A stretch of DNA of 64,000 nt from Halorubrum salinarum. GTDB taxonomy: Archaea > Halobacteriota > Halobacteria > Halobacteriales > Haloferacaceae. The first letter of the stretch is position 1. The number at the start of each line of letters is the position of its first letter. The notes below the pieces were generated by a model. That model was not told where the DNA came from. It was given only the letters and a program-made list of their open reading frames with translations, and searched no databases. Shown here piece by piece: positions 19,534 through 50,722 of the stretch. The position numbers were made by a program, and so were the translations under genes. The DNA lies in the NCBI RefSeq assembly GCF_013267195.1, contig NZ_CP053941.1:1302001-1366000 (forward strand), in the 5' to 3' direction.

Positions 19534-20388
19534 TCAGTACCGCGACGGGATGAAGGCCATCCCGGCGAGCATGATCGACGACAGGACGGAGAGAACGAGG
19601 ACGCGCGAGAGACCGCTGTTGTACTGGTGGAACCGGTCGATCTCGGCGGCTTGCGCCTCGTACGACTCGATGTCGGTCGTCATCTGAAGCGTGGAGGCGT
19701 CGGGGAAGTGCGCGACGAAGTCCGTGCCGCTGAGCGTCAGCTCCGAGTGCTGCGAGACCTCCACCGACTCCGTCTGCGTGGTCTCGTAGACGACGACCGC
19801 GCCGCCGGCGGTCACGTCGTCCACGGTCACCGTCTGCCCGCCGTAGTCGAACGTCTCGCCCGTCGCGTACGTTCGCTCTTCGGGCGCCGGGAAGTACTCC
19901 TCGACCGGCACCAGCGTCCGATCGCCGTTCTCGTCGGTCACCGCGACGTACTCGCCGTCATCGAGCGTGACCGTCTCGTTTTCGGCGTCGTCGTCGGCCC
20001 CGAGGATCGCCTGCCGGTCGATCACCTCGACGAGGGTGAACTCGGTCGCGTTCTCCCCGGCGATCTCGACGCGCCACTCGCGGTCGTCGACCGAGACGGT
20101 CGACCCGTTCGCCAGCGTCTCCGACGTCTCCGCCGTGTACTCGCGTTCGAGCGTCGCCGTGACGACGGTGGTCGCTCCGCCGCCGTGACCACCGCCTTCC
20201 TCCGTCTCCGAGATGTCGGCCACGAGCCACGTCTCGCCGCCGACCTCGATCGACTCGTTTTGCGAGGCGTCAATCTCGGGGTTCTCGAAGGCGATTTCGG
20301 GACTCTCAGCCGTCGCAGTCAGCGCGCCCGCCACGCCCGCGACACCGAGGAAGAGCGCGACGAACACGGCCACAGCGCGTCGTTGCAT
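19534..20388 (-). CDS. Exported or membrane-bound beta-rich protein, unknown function
   Basis: 284 residues starting MQRRAVAVFVALFLGV, a signal peptide or first membrane segment, then a long extracellular part (about 30-255) with repeated Thr/Val/Glu beta-strand patterns and several N-x-S/T sites (for example ANGSTVS, AENATEF, AENETVT), and a C-terminal membrane segment (about 260-280, ending FIPSRY). The charge pattern would place the central part outside the cell. Two similar strand units (IEVGGETWLVADI, VSVDDREWRVEIAG, VTLDDGEYVAV) suggest repeat origin. I do not recognise the family. Confidence 0.7.
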   Translation of the reverse strand: MQRRAVAVFVALFLGVAGVAGALTATAESPEIAFENPEIDASQNESIEVGGETWLVADISETEEGGGHGGGATTVVTATLEREYTAETSETLANGSTVSVDDREWRVEIAGENATEFTLVEVIDRQAILGADDDAENETVTLDDGEYVAVTDENGDRTLVPVEEYFPAPEERTYATGETFDYGGQTVTVDDVTAGGAVVVYETTQTESVEVSQHSELTLSGTDFVAHFPDASTLQMTTDIESYEAQAAEIDRFHQYNSGLSRVLVLSVLSSIMLAGMAFIPSRY

Positions 20389-20467
20389 AGTTGACGCATG
20401 GGTCACCCGGTGTTTAACGGTTACTAAGCGGGGCAGTTTGCGGGAACGACGGAGGCGAAGAAACGGA

Positions 20468-20543
20468 AGCCAAGGGCCGGATTTGAACCGGCGTTGGGCG
20501 GCTCTGCAGGCCGCTGCGTCTGACCGGACTCTGCCACCTTGGC
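20468..20543 (-). tRNA. tRNA-Cys (GCA)
   Basis: 76-base cloverleaf on the minus strand. The acceptor pairs GCCAAGG with CCTTGGC, the anticodon stem GCGGC/GCCGC holds the loop CTGCAGA with anticodon GCA, the T arm reads GCCGG-TTCAAAT-CCGGC, and the discriminator is U, the base expected for tRNA-Cys. No CCA is encoded and no intron is seen. It lies just past the rRNA operon but has its own upstream promoter-like box and is separated from 5S by two hairpins. Confidence 0.95.
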
Positions 20544-20564
20544 GCCGTCCGAACGTACCGCTGT

Positions 20565-20578
20565 CGAGCGTTTAAGTT
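20565..20578 (-). promoter_or_regulatory. Promoter box of tRNA-Cys
   Basis: Minus-strand CTTAAAC centred near 20570, about 26 bases before the tRNA 5' end, the normal distance for an archaeal TATA-type box. Confidence 0.6.
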
Positions 20579-20590
20579 TAGCGGTCGGCT

Positions 20591-20607
20591 ACGAGCCTGC
20601 GGCTCGT
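20591..20607 (-). terminator. Short hairpin downstream of 5S rRNA
   Basis: Perfect seven-base stem ACGAGCC/GGCTCGT with a three-base loop, between the larger hairpin and the tRNA-Cys promoter. May support termination or processing. Confidence 0.4.
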
Positions 20608-20620
20608 TAGATATGAAGAA

Positions 20621-20647
20621 AGCCCACGGACGCGCTGTCCGTGGGCT
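20621..20647 (-). terminator. rRNA operon terminator hairpin
   Basis: Perfect 11-base stem (AGCCCACGGAC with GTCCGTGGGCT) around a five-base loop, followed on the minus strand by the T-rich TTTCTTC. It stands directly after the 5S gene and before a separately promoted tRNA, the expected place for the operon terminator. Confidence 0.6.
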
Positions 20648-20673
20648 GTAATGGGAATGTTCCCGTATGAGTG

Positions 20674-20795
20674 GGGAGGCGGCGACTCGTGGTTCCCAGA
20701 GGATCGCTCACTCCAGTACTTCACGATACGCTGGTAGGCTTAACTTCCGTGTTCGGAATGGGTACGGGTGTTTCCCTACCGCTGTGGCCGCCTTC
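20674..20795 (-). rRNA. 5S ribosomal RNA
   Basis: About 122 bases on the minus strand. The ends pair (GGCGGCC with GGCGGCG read in reverse complement), and the conserved core CCCGTACCCATTCCGAACACGG is directly visible, with the AGTACTGGAGTG arm behind it. Ends are estimated to within a few bases. A small GGGAA-TG-TTCCC palindrome follows at 20653-20664. Confidence 0.92.
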
Positions 20796-20869
20796 ATGCC
20801 GACTCTCGGACTCGAACCGAGACGCTCTCACTACAGAGAGCGACGCCAGTGTCGGTCGTGGTTCGAAAT

Positions 20870-20893
20870 CAACCGTGTGTACGTGCGATCCAG
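20870..20893 (-). repeat. 3' arm of the 23S rRNA processing stem
   Basis: This 24-base stretch is complementary to 23963-23986, with a single G-U type difference. The two arms bracket the whole 23S gene and would form the long helix with the bulge-helix-bulge cut site used by the archaeal splicing endonuclease. Confidence 0.8.
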
Positions 20894-20934
20894 ATACCGC
20901 CTGAACTCATGCGAGTTCGTGGCGCGTCAGCGCC

Positions 20935-23848
<2,914 letters not shown>

Positions 23849-23962
23849 TGTCAACGGACTCTCGAAGGAGAGTCGTTGACGGTGTCAGAAACACTCGTCA
23901 GAGTGTACCGACTGTATATGGTTCACTGACGTTCCACGAACTCGGATGAGTTCAGTGGACGT

Positions 23963-23986
23963 CTGGATCGCACGTATACACGGTTG
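23963..23986 (-). repeat. 5' arm of the 23S rRNA processing stem
   Basis: Partner of 20870-20893; see that entry. It lies about 115 bases before the mature 23S 5' end, with further hairpins in between. Confidence 0.8.
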
Positions 23987-24059
23987 TCATTGAATCGCCC
24001 CGGGTGTGACGGGGCGTTCGTCGAACCCTTCCCATCCGCGGTTTCCCGGGATGGTGCAT

Positions 24060-24120
24060 CGGTCGTCGTGTCCGAACCGAGTCGCGTCTCCCACTTAAGG
24101 GGACGGATTCGCTTCGGACG
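24060..24120 (-). promoter_or_regulatory. Possible internal promoter in the 16S-23S spacer
   Basis: Between tRNA-Ala and 23S the minus strand reads CCCCTTAAGTGGGAGACGCG, with a TTAA core similar to the main rRNA promoter boxes. Spacer promoters are known in Halobacterium; this one is only a sequence likeness. Confidence 0.25.
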
Positions 24121-24124
24121 GACA

Positions 24125-24196
24125 TGGACTCACTGGGATTCGAACCCAGGGCATCCTCCTTGCAAGGGAGGCACTCTACCGCTGAGCTATGAGCCC
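24125..24196 (-). tRNA. tRNA-Ala (UGC) in the rRNA spacer
   Basis: 72 bases on the minus strand. The acceptor GGGCTCA pairs with TGAGTCC (one G-U), the anticodon stem CCTCC/GGAGG holds loop CTTGCAA with anticodon TGC, and the T arm is CTGGG-TTCGAAT-CCCAG with discriminator A. A spacer tRNA-Ala is usual for euryarchaeal rRNA operons. Confidence 0.97.
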
Positions 24197-24241
24197 ACCT
24201 TCCCCGAAGGGAAGGTCATGTCGCGTGTTGTGTGAGCCGTG

Positions 24242-24293
24242 GTCGTTCTGAAGTGTCCAAGCCGGTGGGTGGGCGGACTACACAGTCCAATGC
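24242..24293 (-). repeat. 3' arm of the 16S rRNA processing stem
   Basis: Segments of this stretch (GCATTGGAC, CTGTGTAG, GTCCG, CGGCTTGG, GAACGAC in minus-strand order) pair with matching segments of 25908-25962, forming an interrupted helix around 16S with bulges, the usual cleavage platform for 16S release. Confidence 0.8.
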
Positions 24294-24363
24294 GAATGAG
24301 TAGTGACCGTCTTAGAAAGACGGTCGTAAGGTGAGCTCGCCCAGAAGGCGAGTCTCGGGTCGG

Positions 24364-25833
<1,470 letters not shown>

Positions 25834-26180
25834 GTATGTCCTTCAGGCCTGATTCCCGGCCTGAAGGGGGTGTTGGCGGGTGTCAACGATGATGTTGACA
25901 CACCATTGCATTGGTCTGTGTGGTGTCCGGGCCAGCCAACGGCTTGGATGGCACCGAACGACCACGGCTCACATCAGATCACCGCTTACGCCGGAGCGCA
26001 GGGGGCGTGATCCTCATCCTTCGCGGACCTGAACGTACCGGACGACGGGTCATAAACCCATCGGAACGGTACGGGTCCAGCGAAACCGGGCCGGGTTGAA
26101 CGGCCCGAGTCCGCGATGCGTTCTTCGCATTTCTTCGAATGCCCGGGTTGTACTTAACCCCGTCGAACCATCGGCGCCAC
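25834..26180 (-). promoter_or_regulatory. rRNA operon leader with two tandem promoters
   Basis: The distal promoter reads TTCGACGGGGTTAAG (minus strand, about 26153-26168) with a start region ATGCGAA near 26126, about 26 bases on. The proximal promoter reads CCGATGGGTTTATG (about 26051-26064) with start region CCGCGAAGG near 26025. Both follow the haloarchaeal rRNA promoter pattern (TTCGACGG-GTTTTATG then a GCGAA start). Closer to 16S lie two perfect hairpins (25840-25867 and 25880-25901). Confidence 0.65.
25908..25962 (-). repeat. 5' arm of the 16S rRNA processing stem
   Basis: Partner of 24242-24293. The helix includes GACCAATGC, CACACAG, CGGAC and CCAAGCCG segments separated by small bulges. 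Confidence 0.8.
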
Positions 26181-26343
26181 GTCATGCGGTTTCATGCCGG
26201 GAGACGGGAATTGACCGGATCCGATCGAACCGGCGACGTGACTGTTCGGGGCGGTCACTCTGCGGCGCAACGGTGATCATGCCCGAAGCGTTCCGGTCCA
26301 CCGGCGGCTAAAACGAGAGATCGGGATCGGAGCGCCCGGGGAA

Positions 26344-26673
26344 CTACTCCTCGTCGAGGTACTCGATGCCCTGCTTCGAGACGTTGGCTTTGGTGATGTC
26401 GTCGAGGTCGTTGAGCCAGAAGTCGTCGGCGGCGTCGTCCACCTCCGGGGCTCCGTCCTTCCACGCCCAGCCCTCGTACTCGTGGACTTTCTGCGTCCCC
26501 TTCTCGCGAAGCCTGAGCGTCGTTCGCTCGGCCTCCTCCTCCGAGGGCGCCGGGTCGAGCGTCCGAGCTGCCTTGAGCGCCGCCTGACGCGGCATGTTGC
26601 CCGAGAACTCGCTCGGTTCCGATCCGTCTTCTTCCCGAAGGGCAAAGTTTCGCTTACCGTCTTCACGTACCAT
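26344..26673 (-). CDS. MC1 family chromosomal (histone-like) protein
   Basis: 109 residues, starting at MVREDGKRNFALR because the sequence beyond has no MC1 likeness. It matches MC1 from Methanosarcina along its length: RNFALREEDG, the PRQAALKAA motif and LRLREKGTQKVHEYEGW. MC1 is a monomeric DNA-bending protein of the archaeal chromosome. This copy has fewer lysines and an acidic C-terminal third, as expected for a halophile. A GGAGG ribosome site eight bases before the ATG and a strong ATATATTTAT box at about 26711-26722 point to high expression. It lies next to the rRNA promoters. Confidence 0.9.
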   Translation of the reverse strand: MVREDGKRNFALREEDGSEPSEFSGNMPRQAALKAARTLDPAPSEEEAERTTLRLREKGTQKVHEYEGWAWKDGAPEVDDAADDFWLNDLDDITKANVSKQGIEYLDEE

Positions 26674-27014
26674 GGTTTTGCCTCCGTGTGACACCAGCAC
26701 ACAGTCTGTAATAAATATATCGGGGAAATGAAAGCTGTACGCCACAATTTTTATATACTATCCCGGTCGCTGGTTGCGGTTTTCGCTCTCTGCGACGCGA
26801 GGCGAGAATCTGACATCGGTTCGCACCGAGGCAGTCGCCGCGTTCGGCCGTCGGTTCGCCGCCCGCGAGACGGGTCGGATCCGCTCGCCGAGCGTCCGCG
26901 CCTCGATGTCCGTTCCGCGTTCTTCGACGCACGCGCGCGGTCGGGGACTCCCGCCGACTGCGGGTAAACAACACTTATGTGTCTGCTATGGCGAAATGCG
27001 ACAACACACCCGCG
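26674..27014. promoter_or_regulatory. Promoter region between MC1 and the AbrB-like gene
   Basis: 341 bases without a gene. The left 90 bases are strongly AT-rich and carry the MC1 promoter and a second TATA-like element, TTTTTATATACTA at 26748-26760, that could work in either direction. The right end has AACACTTATG (26971-26980), a box for the plus-strand AbrB-like gene. The GC-rich middle shows nothing I recognise. Confidence 0.45.
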
Positions 27015-42530: not shown

Positions 42531-44159
42531 TTACGAGAACTTCCGGACCGTCATGTCGAGGGTGTCGAGGTCGAGGATAGGGGCGTAGCCGGCGTCGGGG
42601 TCGATGTTAACGGACTTCTGGAAGTCGGTCTGGGCCTGCCAGCAGCCGGAGTTGACCGCGAGCACGTTGTGGTACTTCCCCCAGCCGAGCTTGTGGACGT
42701 GGCCGGTGTGGAACACGTCGGGCACGTCCTCGATGACGAGGTAGTCGCGCTCCTCGGGCGCGACGCGGGTGTGACCGCCGAACTGCGGGGCGACGTGGCG
42801 CTTCTTCAGCAGGTGGTACATCGCCTTGTGCGGCTCGTCGTAGCTCGCCTTCTCCTCCGGCAGCTCAGCGATCACCTCGTCGAGCGAGACGCCGTGGTAC
42901 ATCAGCACCTCGACGCCCTCGACCGAGACGGTGGCCGGGTTCGAGACGATCCGGGCGTCGTGGACGTCCAGGATGTCCCGGATCTCGTCGTCGAAGCCGG
43001 GCTGCGGCTCGGCGAGTCGGACGGCGTCGTGGTTGCCGGGGATCATCACGACCTCGGTGTCGGCGGGCACCTCCTTGAGGTGCTCCGAGAAGGCCTCGTA
43101 CTGCTCGTAGATGTCGACGATGTCCAGCTCCTCGTCCTGATCGGGGTAGACGCCGACCCCCTCGACCATGTCGCCCGCGAGGAGGAGGTACTCCACGGGA
43201 TCGGCCTCGGGGGTGTGGAGCCAGTCGGTGAACGAGTGCCACGCGTCGGCCATGAACTCGTCGCTGCCGACGTGGACGTCGGAGATCAGCGCGGCCTGGA
43301 CGTGGCGGTCCGCGCCGCCCGGGCGGTGGGTCCGAGGGACGTCCGGGAAGTGGAGCGAGTCGGCGAAGAGGATGCCGGCGTCGTCCGCGAGCGACCCCTC
43401 GACGGCGACGCACTCGTCTAAGAGGATCTCGTCGACCACGTCGGCGAGGCCCTTGTCCTTCATCACGAGGGCGGGGAAGGTCCCGGTGGTGTCCTCCAAC
43501 TCGATCAGCCAGTGGCCGGACTTCGTGGAGCGCACGTCGTTGACGAGGCCGATCATGGCGGCGTCGCTGCCGCCCGGCATGTCCGCGATCGCCTCCGCGG
43601 GCCGGTGGTTGACGCGGCCGCGGAGGATCTTCGAGAGCCGCTCGTAGCGGTCGCGGAACGTCGTGACGAAGTCCTTGTACTCGCCGGTTCCCGTGCTGCG
43701 CCCGGTCATGTCGTTGCCGACCGCCAAGTCGCGCAGGTCGGGGTCGCGGCGGCGTTCCGAGTTGTCGCGGGGAGCGCCGGCCTCGGTAGCCTCGGCAGCC
43801 TCGGCGGTCTCGACGGGGGCGTCCGGCTCGACGGCGTCCGCGGTCGCGGTCGGTGCGTCGGCGGTCCCTCGCGAGGCCCTCCCGGCGTCCGTTGGGTCCG
43901 GATCCACAGACCCCTTCGTTTCGACTGGAGATTGTCCCGTTTCGCCCGGTGAACCCGGAGATCCGTCTGTCTCCCCGATCGCGTCGCGGACGTGGTCGGC
44001 GGTGATCCGCAGGGCGTCGTCGGGGGCGCGGTCGACGGCGGCCGCGACGGCGGCGGCCGGGTCGGTCGCGCCGGCGAGCAGGGTCACCGCCTCGCGCTCG
44101 GCGTTGTAGCCGCGCTCGGCGAGGGCTTTCGCGATCCGGGCGTTCGACTCCAGCGGCAC
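42531..44159 (-). CDS. polD1: DNA polymerase D small subunit (DP1), 3'-5' exonuclease
   Basis: 542 residues from a GTG giving VPLESNARIAKALAERGYN, the usual family start; an ATG nine codons upstream is the alternative. Layout: N-terminal helical domain, a disordered acidic linker (about 80-160), OB fold (GLVNDVRSTKSGHWLIELED), then a calcineurin-like phosphodiesterase with ISDVHVGS, LLAGDMVEG, PGNHDA, MYHGVS and FHTGHVHKLG, the metal ligands of proofreading by PolD. It pairs with DP2 coded elsewhere to form the archaeal replicative polymerase. Its place beside sec11 and orc1 is a conserved origin neighbourhood. An ORB-like core (43911-43922) sits within its linker coding region. Confidence 0.93.
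   Translation of the reverse strand: MPLESNARIAKALAERGYNAEREAVTLLAGATDPAAAVAAAVDRAPDDALRITADHVRDAIGETDGSPGSPGETGQSPVETKGSVDPDPTDAGRASRGTADAPTATADAVEPDAPVETAEAAEATEAGAPRDNSERRRDPDLRDLAVGNDMTGRSTGTGEYKDFVTTFRDRYERLSKILRGRVNHRPAEAIADMPGGSDAAMIGLVNDVRSTKSGHWLIELEDTTGTFPALVMKDKGLADVVDEILLDECVAVEGSLADDAGILFADSLHFPDVPRTHRPGGADRHVQAALISDVHVGSDEFMADAWHSFTDWLHTPEADPVEYLLLAGDMVEGVGVYPDQDEELDIVDIYEQYEAFSEHLKEVPADTEVVMIPGNHDAVRLAEPQPGFDDEIRDILDVHDARIVSNPATVSVEGVEVLMYHGVSLDEVIAELPEEKASYDEPHKAMYHLLKKRHVAPQFGGHTRVAPEERDYLVIEDVPDVFHTGHVHKLGWGKYHNVLAVNSGCWQAQTDFQKSVNIDPDAGYAPILDLDTLDMTVRKFS
43911..43930 (-). promoter_or_regulatory. ORB-like motif inside the DP1 gene
   Basis: The 12-base core GAAACGAAGGGG, identical to that of the right ORB of the origin, within CTCCAGTCGAAACGAAGGGG. 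It falls in the disordered-linker part of the coding region. Confidence 0.35.
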
Positions 44160-45387: not shown

Positions 45388-47196
45388 TCAGTTGTCGAAC
45401 CGCGCTTGGACGAACGGCTGCGCGTTCTCGATGTCGCCGAGCCGCGAGTCCGACAGGAGCACTGCTTCCGTCTCCTCAACGGGGACGGAGAGGCCCATCT
45501 CCTTCGTCCGGCCGTAGCGGCCCTTCGAGACGACGACGGCGTTGACGATCCCGAGCATGTCGAGCTCGCTGATGAGGTCGGTGACCCGTCGCTGGGTTAA
45601 GACGTCGGCGTCGATCTCCTCGCAGAGGCGCTTGTAGATGTTGAACACCTCGCCCGTGTTGATGTTGTGGACGCCGTTCTTTTCGAGGAGGATAACGGCG
45701 AACAGGACGATCTTGCTCTGCGTCGGGAGGGTGCGGACGACCTCGACGACGCGGTCGAGCTCGATCTTGTCCTGGGCCTGTCGGACGTGTTTCTCCGCGA
45801 CGATCTCGGCCTGCGAGCGCTCGGCGAGCTCGCCGGCGGTCCGGAGGAGGTCGAGGGCGCGTCGGGCGTCGCCGTGTTCCTGTGCGGCGAAGGCGGCACA
45901 GAGGGGGATCACGTCGTCGGTGAGCGCGTCGGGCTTGAACGCGGTGTCGGCGCGGTGCTGGAGGATGTCGCGGAGCTGGTTGGCGTCGTACGGCGGGAAG
46001 ACGATCTCCTCCTCGCCGAGGCTCGACTTGACGCGGGGGTCGAGGAAGTCGGTGAACTTCAGGTCGTTCGAGATGCCCATGATCGAGATGCGCGAGCGGT
46101 CGAGCTCGGAGTTCATCCGGGAGAGGTTATAGAGGGTGTCGTCGCCGCTCTTCTCGACGAGCTTGTCGATCTCGTCGAGCATGATCACGACCACGCGCTC
46201 GTGGTAGTCGACCGCCTCGAAGAACGTCGAGTAGACGCGGTCGGTGGGCCACCCCGTCATCGGCACTTCCTCCATCTCGTCGGCGTCAGCTTCGAGCTCG
46301 TCGATGCGGTCGTCGAGCTCGTCGACGGAGTCGAACTCGGTGTCGGCGAGGGCGGCGGCCGGGTCGCGCCCGGTGGTCTCCGCGGCGTCTGTCGCGTCGG
46401 CGCGGAGCCCCTCCAGTCGCTCTAACCGGTCGGCGATCACCGCCTGGTTCTCCTCGATGAACGTGTTCGCGAGCTGAGCGAGGACGCGGTACTGCGTGTC
46501 GGTCACCTCGCAGTTGATGTACTCGACCTCGCAGGGCACGTCGTACTTCTGGGAGGTGGACTCGAGCTCCTGGGAGACGAACTTCGCCGAGGCGGTCTTC
46601 CCGGTCCCCGTCTTCCCGTAGATGAGGATGTTCGAGGGGGTCTCGCCGCGGAGCGCGGAGACGAGGATGGTCGCCATCCGGTTGATCTGGTCGTTGCGGT
46701 GGGGGAGCTCGTGCGGCGTGTACGAGGGGCGGAGGACCTCTTTGTTCTCGAATATCGGTTCGCCGGAGAGGAGGTCGTCGAACAGTCCCTGGTTATCGTC
46801 GTCGTCGTCGAGGACGACCCCGTCGAAGTCGACGTCCGGCGACGACCGGTCGCGGCCGCCGTTGTCGAGCCCCGCCGTTTCGGGTCGAGCGTCGGTCGAG
46901 AGGGAGGCCGCGTCGGGGTCCGACTCGGCGTCCGAGACGCCGAAATCCGATCCCGCGTCGGCGCCGGAACCGGACCCGGCCGGAGAGTCGGGGTCGAAGT
47001 CGTCGATATCGGGGGACTCAGACCCGTCGTCCTCGGACCCGGCGGTTCCAGAGCCCGAGGCCGCGAAGTCGTCGGGGTCGGGCGTCGAAGAGCGGTTCGA
47101 CGGCGGGTCATCGGAGTCGCCGCTATGGTCCGATTCGTCGCCGTCGTCCGGGTCGATGCCGCCGTCGGCCCGCGGTGTGTGATCGCCTTCGTCCAT
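45388..47196 (-). CDS. orc1: Orc1/Cdc6 replication initiator
   Basis: 602 residues. An N-terminal acidic, Ser/Asp/Gly-rich disordered region of about 140 residues precedes an AAA+ ATPase: Walker A GKTGTGKT (about 187-195), Walker B VVIMLDEIDK, sensor 1 GISNDLKF, arginine-containing HGDARRALDLLR, then a C-terminal winged helix (DRVVEVVRTLPTQSKIVL onward). It binds ORB repeats and starts replication. An ORB lies right against its start codon, so self-regulation is likely. With sec11 and polD1 behind it this is the origin-linked orc1 that is conserved across haloarchaea. The 50-residue charged insert between Walker A and B (TEFDSVDELDDRIDELEAD) is common in this group. Confidence 0.95.
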   Translation of the reverse strand: MDEGDHTPRADGGIDPDDGDESDHSGDSDDPPSNRSSTPDPDDFAASGSGTAGSEDDGSESPDIDDFDPDSPAGSGSGADAGSDFGVSDAESDPDAASLSTDARPETAGLDNGGRDRSSPDVDFDGVVLDDDDDNQGLFDDLLSGEPIFENKEVLRPSYTPHELPHRNDQINRMATILVSALRGETPSNILIYGKTGTGKTASAKFVSQELESTSQKYDVPCEVEYINCEVTDTQYRVLAQLANTFIEENQAVIADRLERLEGLRADATDAAETTGRDPAAALADTEFDSVDELDDRIDELEADADEMEEVPMTGWPTDRVYSTFFEAVDYHERVVVIMLDEIDKLVEKSGDDTLYNLSRMNSELDRSRISIMGISNDLKFTDFLDPRVKSSLGEEEIVFPPYDANQLRDILQHRADTAFKPDALTDDVIPLCAAFAAQEHGDARRALDLLRTAGELAERSQAEIVAEKHVRQAQDKIELDRVVEVVRTLPTQSKIVLFAVILLEKNGVHNINTGEVFNIYKRLCEEIDADVLTQRRVTDLISELDMLGIVNAVVVSKGRYGRTKEMGLSVPVEETEAVLLSDSRLGDIENAQPFVQARFDN

Positions 47197-47222: not shown

Positions 47223-47643
47223 GGCAAGGGAAGTCCCTTCAGACGCCGTCTCCGGTCGGAAACACGCGTTCGCGGTCGGAACCGAGACCGACCACGTCCA
47301 GTTGATACAGTCGAACCAGATGAAGAGACGGTACAAAAGTGTTCCTCTCTGGAGTTGAAACGTCCCCCTCGATTGGAGCATCGGGGTGATAGGGGGTCGG
47401 TTCGGGTCGAACGACGCGCCGGTCGAACCGGTCGGGAGACGGAGCCAATTCGAATGACGGCCGGTCGGATCGCGAGGCGACTCGACGGAACCAAGGCGTG
47501 TAGCAGACATCGACAGCCGTTGGGGTCATCTCGCCCTCCGGCAATCGTCTCGGAGCTGATCGCAGTCGGATCGGCGTTCCGTCTCACGCTCGGCGATTTC
47601 GGGTCGCGGTTCCATGCTCGGGGAGCCGCGTCGGTTGGGGTTA

Positions 47644-47672
47644 CCCCCACACCCCTTTGTTTCGGGTGGAAC
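47644..47672 (-). repeat. Left ORB of oriC
   Basis: Minus strand GTTCCACCCGAAACAAAGGG then GTGTGGGGG; differs from the right ORB at three of 29 positions and is in opposite orientation. Confidence 0.8.
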
Positions 47673-47691
47673 GCCGAATGGGTGGGGTGGG

Positions 47692-47704
47692 GGTGTTGGG
47701 GTGG
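47692..47704 (+). repeat. Left arm of 13-base inverted repeat
   Basis: GGTGTTGGGGTGG, the exact reverse complement of 47856-47868. Confidence 0.8.
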
Positions 47705-47713
47705 CTATAGATA

Positions 47714-47825
47714 GCGGTGGTTTTAATACACAAACCATATAATAGTACCCTCGACAATCCTCTCTAGATTATATTTGTAGTATTGTGGTTGTTTTATTTG
47801 ATCTTCGTGCTGATTTTATCTAGTG
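47714..47825. other. AT-rich unwinding region of oriC
   Basis: About 110 bases that are mostly A/T in a genome near 68-70% GC, centred between the two arms and the two ORBs. It fits a DNA unwinding element. Confidence 0.75.
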
Positions 47826-47855
47826 TAGCTCCAACCGACCCCGAGCAGCCACCGT

Positions 47856-47868
47856 CCACCCCAACACC
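47856..47868 (+). repeat. Right arm of 13-base inverted repeat
   Basis: CCACCCCAACACC; partner of 47692-47704, 8 bases before the right ORB. Confidence 0.8.
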
Positions 47869-47875
47869 TCTCCGG

Positions 47876-47904
47876 GTTCCACCTGAAACGAAGGGGTGGG
47901 GGGC
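47876..47904 (+). repeat. Right ORB of oriC
   Basis: GTTCCACCTGAAACGAAGGG then GTGGGGGG; contains the core GAAACGAAGGGG. Confidence 0.8.
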
Positions 47905-48096
47905 TACCGATCGACACCTGCTCTCAGGTGACATCCTCTCACCGGCAACGTTTCGTCTCGACGCCACCTCTCCTCGACAACGTCCTTCCCCAACAACGTC
48001 CTTCCCCGACAACGACCCCCTCAACGACGCTCCACCTCGACGACGCTCACCACCCACGGCGCGCCGCTGGCGAACGTCACGGTTGGCGGCGATAGT

Positions 48097-48130: not shown

Positions 48131-48169
48131 ATGACCCGATTCCGCACGTCGGACGAGGTGGTCCGATGA
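48131..48169 (+). CDS. Possible 12-residue leader peptide
   Basis: ATG followed by codons for MTRFRTSDEVVR and a TGA that overlaps the CoA transferase ATG (ATGA). It lies just after the predicted transcript start of operator 1, and its last codons contain the GAGGTG ribosome site of the next gene. It may only be chance. Confidence 0.25.
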   Translation: MTRFRTSDEVVR

Positions 48170-49476
48170 CTGATGGCGACACCCCCGGTGCCGACAACAC
48201 CGACACCGACGGCGTCGGTGCCGGCGGCCCCGCCGGCGGCGGGAGGATCTTGGACGGCGTCACCGTCCTCGACCTCTCGACGTTCGTCACCGGCGGCTTC
48301 TGCTCGGCGATGCTGTCGAACCAGGGCGCGGAGGTCGTCAAGATCGAACAGCCCGGCTACGGCGACGCCGTCCGCCACTCCGGACCGCCGTTCATCAAGG
48401 GCGAGTCCCCGTACTACTGGACGCTGAGCTACGGGAAGAAGAGCCTCGAACTCGACTTGAAGAACGACGACGCCAAGGAGGCGCTGTACGAGCTGGTCGA
48501 GGAGGCGGACATCTTCATCCAGAACTTCCGCCCGGGCACCGCCGAGCGGCTCGACGTCGACTACGACACGCTCACCGAACACAACGAGGACCTGATCTAC
48601 CTCGCCATCTCCGCGTTCGGGCAGACCGGCCCGTGGCGCGAGCGCTCCGGCTACGACCTCCTCATCCAGGGGATGAGCGGGATCATGAGCGTCACCGGCG
48701 AGGCGGACCGTCAGCCGGTCAAAGTCGGCCTCCCGATGACCGACCTCATCACGGCGATGTGGGCCGCCTTCGGCGCGACGACCGCGCTCTACCGCCGCGA
48801 GCGGACCGGCGAGGGCGAGTACATCGACCTCGGAATGTTGGAGGCCACCCTCCCGTGGCTCACCAAGCAGGCCGGGATGGTGTTCGCGGGCGAGGAGACG
48901 AAGCGCATGGGGACGAAAGACCCCGTCCTCGCCCCGTACCAGACGTTCGAGACGAAGGACGGGTTCATCAACATCTGTATCCTCAACGAGAAGCTCTGGG
49001 GGGAGCTCTGCGAGGCGCTCGACCGGCCGGACCTCCCCGAGGACGACCGCTTCGAGCAGAACGCGGACCGCGTGGAACACCTCAACGAGCTCGAGGCCGA
49101 AATCGAGGCCACCCTCGCCGACAAGACGACCGACGAGTGGATCGAGGTCATCGCCGAGGACGCCGGCGTCCCCGCCGGCCCCGTCTACAGCGTCGAGGAG
49201 GCGCTCAACAGCCCGCAGATCGACGCCCGCGGCACTATCACCGAGATCGAACACCCCGAACTCGGCGAGGTGCCCGTGATCGAGCACCCGCTCAAGTTCC
49301 GCAACGCGGAGAGCGGCTTCGAGCTCCCGCCGCCGTTGCTCGGCGAGCACAACCGCGAGGTGTTCCGCGAACACGGCTACTCGGAGGCCGAGATCGACCG
49401 CCTCGCGGAGCTGGGCGTGTTCGGCGACGCCGCCGAGGACTCCGATGACGAGGACACCGACGGGAATGACGACTGA
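48166..49476 (+). CDS. CaiB/BaiF family (class III) CoA transferase
   Basis: 436 residues. The family moves CoA between carboxylic acids through an aspartyl-CoA intermediate. Visible marks: VLDLSTFVTGGFCSAMLSNQGAEVVKIEQP (read in parts) at the start, FIQNFRPGTAERL, the LPMTDLITAM segment whose Asp193 aligns by eye with the catalytic Asp169 of formyl-CoA transferase, and a C-terminal HPLKF. A 25-residue acidic extension precedes the fold. It is the first gene of a three-gene unit with the thiolase (11-base overlap) and zinc-ribbon gene, and sits behind operator 1 with a clear GAGGTG ribosome site. It probably activates the substrate acid of the island's pathway. Confidence 0.9.
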   Translation: MTDGDTPGADNTDTDGVGAGGPAGGGRILDGVTVLDLSTFVTGGFCSAMLSNQGAEVVKIEQPGYGDAVRHSGPPFIKGESPYYWTLSYGKKSLELDLKNDDAKEALYELVEEADIFIQNFRPGTAERLDVDYDTLTEHNEDLIYLAISAFGQTGPWRERSGYDLLIQGMSGIMSVTGEADRQPVKVGLPMTDLITAMWAAFGATTALYRRERTGEGEYIDLGMLEATLPWLTKQAGMVFAGEETKRMGTKDPVLAPYQTFETKDGFINICILNEKLWGELCEALDRPDLPEDDRFEQNADRVEHLNELEAEIEATLADKTTDEWIEVIAEDAGVPAGPVYSVEEALNSPQIDARGTITEIEHPELGEVPVIEHPLKFRNAESGFELPPPLLGEHNREVFREHGYSEAEIDRLAELGVFGDAAEDSDDEDTDGNDD

Positions 49477-50722
49477 GGTCCGCGTCCGCGGCGTCGGCAT
49501 GACGCCCTTCGAGAGCGAGGCCGAGCGCTCGCTCACCGACCTCGCCGCCACCGCCGCCGAGCGCGCCCTCACGGACGCGGGCGTCGACCCCGCGGCGGTC
49601 GACGCGCTCCACCTCGGCAACGCGCTCGCCGAGGCGCTCGACGAGGGCGCGGGGCTCGCGAACGCCCTCGCGGCCGCGCTCGGCCTCGACGGCGCGTCCG
49701 CGGACCGGATCGAGAACACGAGCGCGACCGGCGCGAGCGCGTTTCACCGCGGCGTCGAGACGCTCCGGAGCGGCGACGCCGACGTCGCGCTCGTCGTCGG
49801 CGCCGAGAAGATGTCCGCGGGCGACACGCGGACCGTCACCGAGGCGATCAGCCGGCTCGTCCACCGGCGCGAGTACGCGCAGGGGCTCACCCTCCCCTCG
49901 TTCGGCGGCCTCGCCGCCGGCGCCTACCTCGACCGCCACGACGCGCCCCGCGAGGCGCTCGCCGCGGTCGCGGCCAAGAACCACGAGAACGCGGTCGACA
50001 ACCCCGTCGCCCAGTTCCGGAAGTCGATCGACGTCGCCGACGCGCTCGACTCCCCGGTCGTCGCCGCGCCGCTCCGGCTGTACGACTGCTGTCCGATGTC
50101 CGACGGCGCCGCCGCCGTCGTCCTGACCCGGGCGGCCGACGACGACCCCACGGACGCTATGGACCCCACCGACGCCACCCCCACCACCGACGCCAGTGAC
50201 GCCACGGACACCGCCGACGCCACCGACGCTGCCGGCGGGAGCGACGCCGACCGCGTCGCCCCCCGCGTCGCCGGCATCGCGAGCGCGACGGGCACCCACG
50301 CGGTCGCCGAGCGCCCGGACCCCCTCTCGATCGAGTCGGTCCGGACCGCGGGCGAGCGCGTCTTCGACTGCGCCGGAATCCGGCCCGACGACGTCGACGT
50401 GGCCTGTATCCACGACGCGTTCACGGTCCTCGAACTGATCGAACTCGAGGAGCTGGGCTTCTACGAGACCGGGACCGCGTGGGAGGCGACACTCGACGGC
50501 GACACCGCGCTCGACGGCGAGCTCCCGGTCAACCCCGGCGGCGGGCTCAAGGCCCGCGGCCACCCGCTCGGCGCGACCGGGCTCTCGCAGATCGTCGAAC
50601 TCGTGTGGCAGCTGCGCGGCGACCTCCACGCGGGCCGCCGCGTCGACGGCGCGGAGACGGCGTTCGCGATCAACGTCGCCGGGTTCGGGAACAACAGCGT
50701 CTGTACGGTGTTGCGCGCGTGA
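49466..50722 (+). CDS. Thiolase-like protein of the DUF35-linked (SCP2/acetyl-CoA C-acyltransferase) type, Cys-to-Ser
   Basis: 418 residues, starting at MTTEVRVRGVG. Thiolase-fold segments are clear: VDALHLGNALAEAL, VALVVGAEKM, CIHDAFT (His316), and NPGGGLKARGHPLGATG (His366). Where thiolases have the nucleophilic Cys (family form VENACASG), this reads IENTSATGA, so Ser86 stands in its place. Residues about 229-260 are an Asp/Thr/Ala-repetitive insert (DATDTADATDA). It overlaps the CoA transferase by 11 bases and its last bases overlap the zinc-ribbon partner. Either it acts without thiolase chemistry or Ser suffices for a different reaction; I cannot tell which. Confidence 0.85.
   Translation: MTTEVRVRGVGMTPFESEAERSLTDLAATAAERALTDAGVDPAAVDALHLGNALAEALDEGAGLANALAAALGLDGASADRIENTSATGASAFHRGVETLRSGDADVALVVGAEKMSAGDTRTVTEAISRLVHRREYAQGLTLPSFGGLAAGAYLDRHDAPREALAAVAAKNHENAVDNPVAQFRKSIDVADALDSPVVAAPLRLYDCCPMSDGAAAVVLTRAADDDPTDAMDPTDATPTTDASDATDTADATDAAGGSDADRVAPRVAGIASATGTHAVAERPDPLSIESVRTAGERVFDCAGIRPDDVDVACIHDAFTVLELIELEELGFYETGTAWEATLDGDTALDGELPVNPGGGLKARGHPLGATGLSQIVELVWQLRGDLHAGRRVDGAETAFAINVAGFGNNSVCTVLRA

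Follow-up and report, generated by a model that had tools for sequence, protein, structure and literature searches.

The locus described here is almost certainly oriC1, the main chromosome origin of a Halorubrum-group archaeon, and the AT-rich DNA between its inverted ORBs carries a polar core element that we regard, with hardly any doubt, as a real component of the origin. The best overall explanation, which we consider probable, is an oriC1 with ORBs, inner G-rich tracts, a third ORB (ORB3) at the initiator gene and a promoter-like polar core.

An oriC1-type origin adjoining orc1

The window, by which we mean the whole 64,000-nucleotide stretch that was analyzed (C1:1302001-1366000), lies in a 3.34-Mb genome of three contigs from the Halorubrum group. 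Eighty loci orthologous to its origin region were fetched, the closest of which are from Halorubrum. An ORB pair was placed in 77 of the 80, which together with the window gives 78 origins; these belong to related species, and counts over them are not counts of independent events. The features of the window's origin are as follows.

45388..47196, minus strand: orc1/cdc6 initiator gene, 602 aa, with Pfam domains Cdc6_C, Cdc6_lid and AAA
47201-47221, plus strand: ORB3, matching the ORB core at 18 of 21 positions, with a few nt between its end and the orc1 ATG
47644-47672, plus strand: left ORB, which carries an outer halophile G-string, is conserved in relatives and agrees with the right ORB at 25/29 positions
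47680..47704, plus strand: left inner G-rich tract, with repeat arm GGTGTTGGGGTGG at 47692-47704; G-rich in 73/78 left arms
47716..47727, plus strand: core element block 1, GGTGG plus the TATA-type box TTTTAAT; TTTA 96-99% conserved per base
47717-47826, no strand: AT-rich core at 68% AT, the probable site of unwinding; practically no other 110-bp stretch of the window is richer in A and T
47741..47753, plus strand: core element block 2, AATAGTACCCTCG (also written AACCATACCCG), conserved in 78/78 origins; its end is the predicted RNA start if block 1 is a TATA box
47856..47868, minus strand: right inner G-rich tract, with arm CCACCCCAACACC on the plus strand, the perfect complement of 47692-47704; G-rich in 58/78 right arms
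47876-47904, minus strand: right ORB with outer G-string; its 21-nt core matches the consensus exactly

The two 29-base ORBs in opposite orientation and the stretch of about 110 AT-rich bases between them, both described in an earlier sequence-only reading of this DNA, are present, and the oriC1-type origin that it proposed is borne out by these elements and by the adjoining orc1 gene. Identification as oriC1 draws in addition on a PolD small-subunit-type gene beside orc1, a gene likewise found near oriC1 of H. volcanii. The adjoining initiator gene is of the oriC1 type, as judged from its Orc1/Cdc6 domains and the 80 orthologous loci, and the nearest solved structures to its product are the archaeal Cdc6 homologues 2qby and 2v1u; as in oriC1 origins, the AT-rich region is flanked by inverted ORBs bearing the halophile G-string. 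Cumulative GC skew reaches its maximum at the origin, which agrees with the peak at published haloarchaeal origins and is not proof of a replication start.

The operon to the right of the origin is conserved in about 70 of the 78 loci. In the window, a CoA-transferase family III gene and a thiolase gene (48166-50722) lie between the origin and this usual rightward oriC1 operon, and a homologous insertion occurs in only 8 of the 78 loci (the window, L001, L002, L005, L009, L012, L017 and L023). Elsewhere in the window, positions 20000-27000 have a GC content of 55-62%, against 70% for the window, and carry six of its twelve CTAG sites; this segment looks like acquired DNA.

A search of the 3.34-Mb genome with the 21-nt ORB core pattern, allowing up to three mismatches, returned four sites (none for the reversed control): the outer pair, ORB3 and one site 22 kb to the right of the origin. 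The last (G000 C1:1371498-1371518; L097, L177) is on the plus strand and has three mismatches; weaker ORB-like sites with five mismatches each occur on the plus strand at window positions 43911 and 63316. It is possible that the fourth ORB and the weaker sites are titration sites or that they arose by chance. Helical phasing of the ORB-ORB distance was considered and set aside, as the signal was weak (R no higher than 0.35 across nine periods) and the species are not independent.

G-rich tracts inside the ORBs

G-rich tracts of the same strand sense occur about 7-30 nt inside the ORBs; the counts per arm given above are for tracts some 9-22 nt inside, which are found on both sides in 56 of the 78 origins. 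In the window they include the perfect 13-nt inverted repeat that the sequence-only reading had picked out (47692-47704 and 47856-47868; 100% complementary, arms 151 nt apart). With the arms shuffled at equal composition, a shared word of at least 13 nt appeared in 0.06% of trials. When the left arm of one species was compared with the right arm of another, however, a shared word of this length or longer was found in 1.1% of pairs, and much of the 13-nt match thus follows from the G-richness of both arms. Over the 78 origins, the mean shared word was 6.74 for arms of one origin versus 6.57 for arms of different species. Judged by these comparisons, the constraint on the arms is one of G-richness, strand and position and not of palindromy, the perfect match in the window lies at the tail of chance expectation for two G-rich tracts, and the palindrome is ordinary once the relatives are taken into account.

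These results bear on the possibility that the origin is symmetric, the 13-nt repeat being a palindrome that is bound by a protein or forms a structure and works only if its arms match, a reading that we consider quite improbable. The low frequency of such a match at equal composition speaks for it, as does the observation, in a study of Haloarcula hispanica (PMC3936714), that mutating both sides has the largest effect; yet arms within one origin are no more alike than arms from different species, 151 nt separate them, and the core that they enclose is polar. Because the arm-to-arm match is unconserved, a structure relying on arm pairing is unlikely, and pairing between the two G-rich arms was rejected as the arms are not co-conserved. 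Neither the structure-forming palindrome nor the high symmetry once ascribed to this origin is upheld by the 78 origins, the interior between the ORBs being directional. The position and strand of the G-rich tracts, by contrast, are conserved among relatives and not random.

The work on Haloarcula hispanica oriC1 (PMC3936714) reports that a G-rich inverted repeat acts as an enhancer, that repeat mutants form smaller colonies with the strongest effect when both sides are changed, that the repeat is present at oriC1 of most haloarchaea with a half-repeat in a few, and that the same tests showed the terminal G-strings of the ORBs to be essential. As described there, the window has a G-rich repeat directly inside both ORBs, with the G-rich strand running from ORB to core; conserved palindromic matching of the arms, also part of that description, is absent across the 78 origins, although it extends to 13 nt in the window. 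The earlier view of the inner repeat as a G-rich element separate from the ORB therefore stands, whereas its novelty does not, an enhancer of this kind having already been tested in that work. By analogy with the Haloarcula hispanica mutants, the G-rich tracts of the window's origin very probably constitute an enhancer and would raise firing efficiency.

A G-rich oriC1 motif has been mentioned as prone to form intermolecular quadruplexes (PMC7565180), and the left arm in the window has four G-runs of three or more; however, four runs of three G occur in only 16/78 element-side and 12/78 far-side arms, and we consider it improbable that the tracts keep the core open through a quadruplex or other single-strand structure. 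An RNA primer, or termination at a G-tract in the mitochondrial style, was rejected on theoretical grounds: over the distal arm, such a transcript would have C-rich sequence. In Haloferax (L031, L032, L038, L041-L045), the distal arm carries a conserved palindrome-like sequence, ACCGCCGTCTAGCGGT, with CTAG at its centre, just inside the distal G-tract.

A polar element in the AT-rich core

Within the core, a TATA-type box is followed after about 19 nt by AAC[AC]RTAYCCG[TC]R. In an anchored core alignment, block 1 has the consensus GG[TA]RG plus TTTAT and block 2 the consensus AACARTACCCG[TC]R, with two invariant positions, while the spacer of about a dozen nt between them is poorly conserved. 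The alignment is gap-free for 74 of the 78 cores; the other four (Halolamina, Haloprofundus) were found by eye to be spaced 1 nt shorter. Between the start of one ORB, mostly the orc1-proximal one, and the first base of block 2 there are 84-101 nt. By our scoring, the element has the opposite orientation to orc1 in seven of the 78 origins (L033, L034, L051, L064, L065, L066 and L069, of which L066 is a weak call), and the neighbouring genes keep their direction.

CTAG is enriched in the oriC1 cores of the 78 loci (132 occurrences versus 57 by dinucleotide shuffle). CATG, by the same procedure, is strongly depleted (5 versus 34 expected). In the Halorubrum group, CTAG is sparse (mean 0.39 versus 2.24), with none beside block 2. 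We do not claim the enrichment as a new finding: CTAG enrichment at origins, together with an orphan methyltransferase, has already been published (PMC4752239), and it is weak in the Halorubrum group.

Spread of the core element across haloarchaeal origins

A model of the core element built from the sequences of 41 cores found matches in 192 of the 242 genomes from the class Halobacteria, which represent 63 of 74 genera, and matching genomes often carry two to four matches on different contigs. The best model score was 2.6 in 1.05 Mb of non-origin DNA from the 80 loci versus 18-53 at origins. We inspected 70 matches: the top 30 loci, a further 20 that were second matches, and 20 with weaker scores from among the matches listed. 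All 70 adjoin an orc gene or fall between an ORB pair at the usual distances, and many are at other orc families without an oriC1-type ORB. The core element may help to locate haloarchaeal origins with ORBs unlike those of oriC1. Outside the class, among about 205 genomes of the phylum, there were six matches with E values of 0.004-0.009, about two being expected by chance, which is close to the noise level. A search of the open-licence literature found no published description of the element.

The element of the window is unique within its genome, where the other orc loci have no strong copy (best score 8.9). Among 19 plasmid orc loci, six have a strong core element and several a degenerate copy. 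The degenerate form, with a shorter second block (AATAGTCC and similar), was seen near the plasmid orc genes of L185, L187, L188, L196 and L199, and may represent a second subtype of the core element. On H. hispanica pHH400, no strong core-element match was present in the 3.3 kb before the record start, the expected place of a mapped active origin, which argues against a requirement for the element at all active origins. The lack of a strong copy at the other orc loci of the window's genome and at roughly two thirds of these plasmid loci also weighs against the place given to the polar element in our overall explanation.

An embedded promoter or an unwinding site

Turning to the function of the core element, block-1 weights learned from origins alone were applied to haloarchaeal plasmids, at 116 annotated gene starts. 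High-scoring positions clustered 24-38 nt before the start codon (14/1740 positions versus 12/10788 elsewhere, p 1.8e-6), and the TATA half of block 1 by itself gave the same enrichment (p 1.2e-5). Reversed, reverse-complement and AT-rich controls gave about 2-fold, and the BRE half gave 1.4- to 2.2-fold, which was not significant. Block 2 was not found at ordinary gene starts. The spacing of the blocks is consistent with an archaeal transcription start site, and RNA synthesis would accordingly begin where block 2 ends. DNA stability is lowest in one of two places: on the TATA box, or at a distance of 20-60 nt beyond block 2 in the downstream direction.

Two readings of these data are of main concern. 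We favour, at about even confidence, the reading in which the core element would be an embedded promoter with an origin-specific start region. Several observations detract from it: at gene starts the BRE part of block 1 falls short of significance, AT-rich controls reach about 2-fold, and block 2 is more conserved than ordinary promoters, which fits a specific protein site too. Somewhat less likely, and still a serious candidate, is that the element is real and not a promoter, being instead a recognition or unwinding site for a helicase-loading or melting factor common to all haloarchaeal origins, its TATA likeness stemming from easy melting. That block 2 occurs at origins and is missing from ordinary gene starts, that the element is common to origins with different initiators, and that its orientation relative to genes varies all argue for such a site; against it, the distribution of the TATA half around annotated gene starts is that of a promoter box, and the block spacing fits an archaeal start site. 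We know of no candidate for such a common factor.

A third reading, that the element is merely a flanking gene's promoter, located inside the origin by coincidence, is highly improbable, and we reject it. The element does usually face the rightward operon, which most loci retain, but it is reversed in the seven flipped origins (counting the weak call at L066) while the operon keeps its direction, and in the window a different pair of genes has been inserted on its downstream side and the leader would be about 410 nt. At other origins, moreover, the place of the element relative to orc varies, and includes positions downstream of orc.

With the embedded-promoter reading, initiation may be envisaged as follows: Orc1 would bind the outer ORBs and load MCM, TBP/TFB and RNA polymerase would open the DNA at the polar element, beside the unwinding lobe, and transcription or open-complex formation there would help to melt the origin. 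More broadly, and only tentatively, haloarchaeal origins of different initiator families could share one polar promoter-type core element required for opening, with melting coupled to TBP/TFB/RNA polymerase (or to a common factor) and tuned by G-rich tracts and, in many genera, by CTAG methylation. A class-wide element common to origins with different initiators is a direct handle on the first opening of archaeal origin DNA.

A third ORB at the orc1 start

An ORB at the start of orc1, suggestive of feedback, had been noted earlier, and is both present and conserved. ORB3 lies 4-15 nt ahead of the in-frame orc1 start in 67 of 81 loci, with constant orientation, whereas 30 shuffled consensus patterns were found in 0-1 of the 81 loci and the reverse complement in none. 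This arrangement is consistent with feedback of Orc1 on orc1, which we consider slightly more likely than not, and in which Orc1 bound at ORB3 would restrain its own synthesis. The G-string of ORB3 coincides with the expected position of the ribosome-binding sequence, such that feedback could be transcriptional or translational. With an ORB fixed at the orc1 start, initiator feedback becomes testable.

Comparison with known systems

The closest comparison is with Haloarcula hispanica oriC1, as presented in the available part of Wu et al. (NAR, PMC3936714). It has in common with the window an adjoining orthologous initiator gene, two inverted ORBs with G-strings, an AT-rich core and, immediately inward of the ORBs, a G-rich repeat of matching strand sense; the repeat sequence differs. 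Where the same text names an inverted repeat, the 78 origins here have a G-rich tract per arm without an arm-to-arm match, and that part of the paper makes no mention of a polar core element or of ORB3. The haloarchaeal oriC1 family in general (PMC3528665, PMC4010727, PMC7776575) resembles the window in its ORBs with halophile G-string, its AT-rich region and the nearby orc1 and PolD small-subunit genes; the window differs in the CoA-transferase and thiolase genes that separate its origin from the usual rightward operon.

With archaeal promoters, the core element shares a TATA-type box rigidly spaced from a conserved start-site region. It differs in being inside origins, in a start region that is far more conserved than usual, in having no consistent downstream gene and in an unsupported BRE. 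Bacterial oriC, with DnaA boxes at dnaA, transcription near oriC and GATC methylation, is comparable only in how it would work: a possible promoter lies by the unwinding region, an initiator site lies at the initiator gene, and methylation sites occur at origins, CTAG being the site in haloarchaea (PMC4752239). The proteins and sequences are unrelated, and CTAG is sparse in the Halorubrum group. Set against these systems, the nested ORBs and G-rich repeat of the window are of a published kind, and the one-directional, promoter-like core between them is a concrete lead on the opening of these origins.
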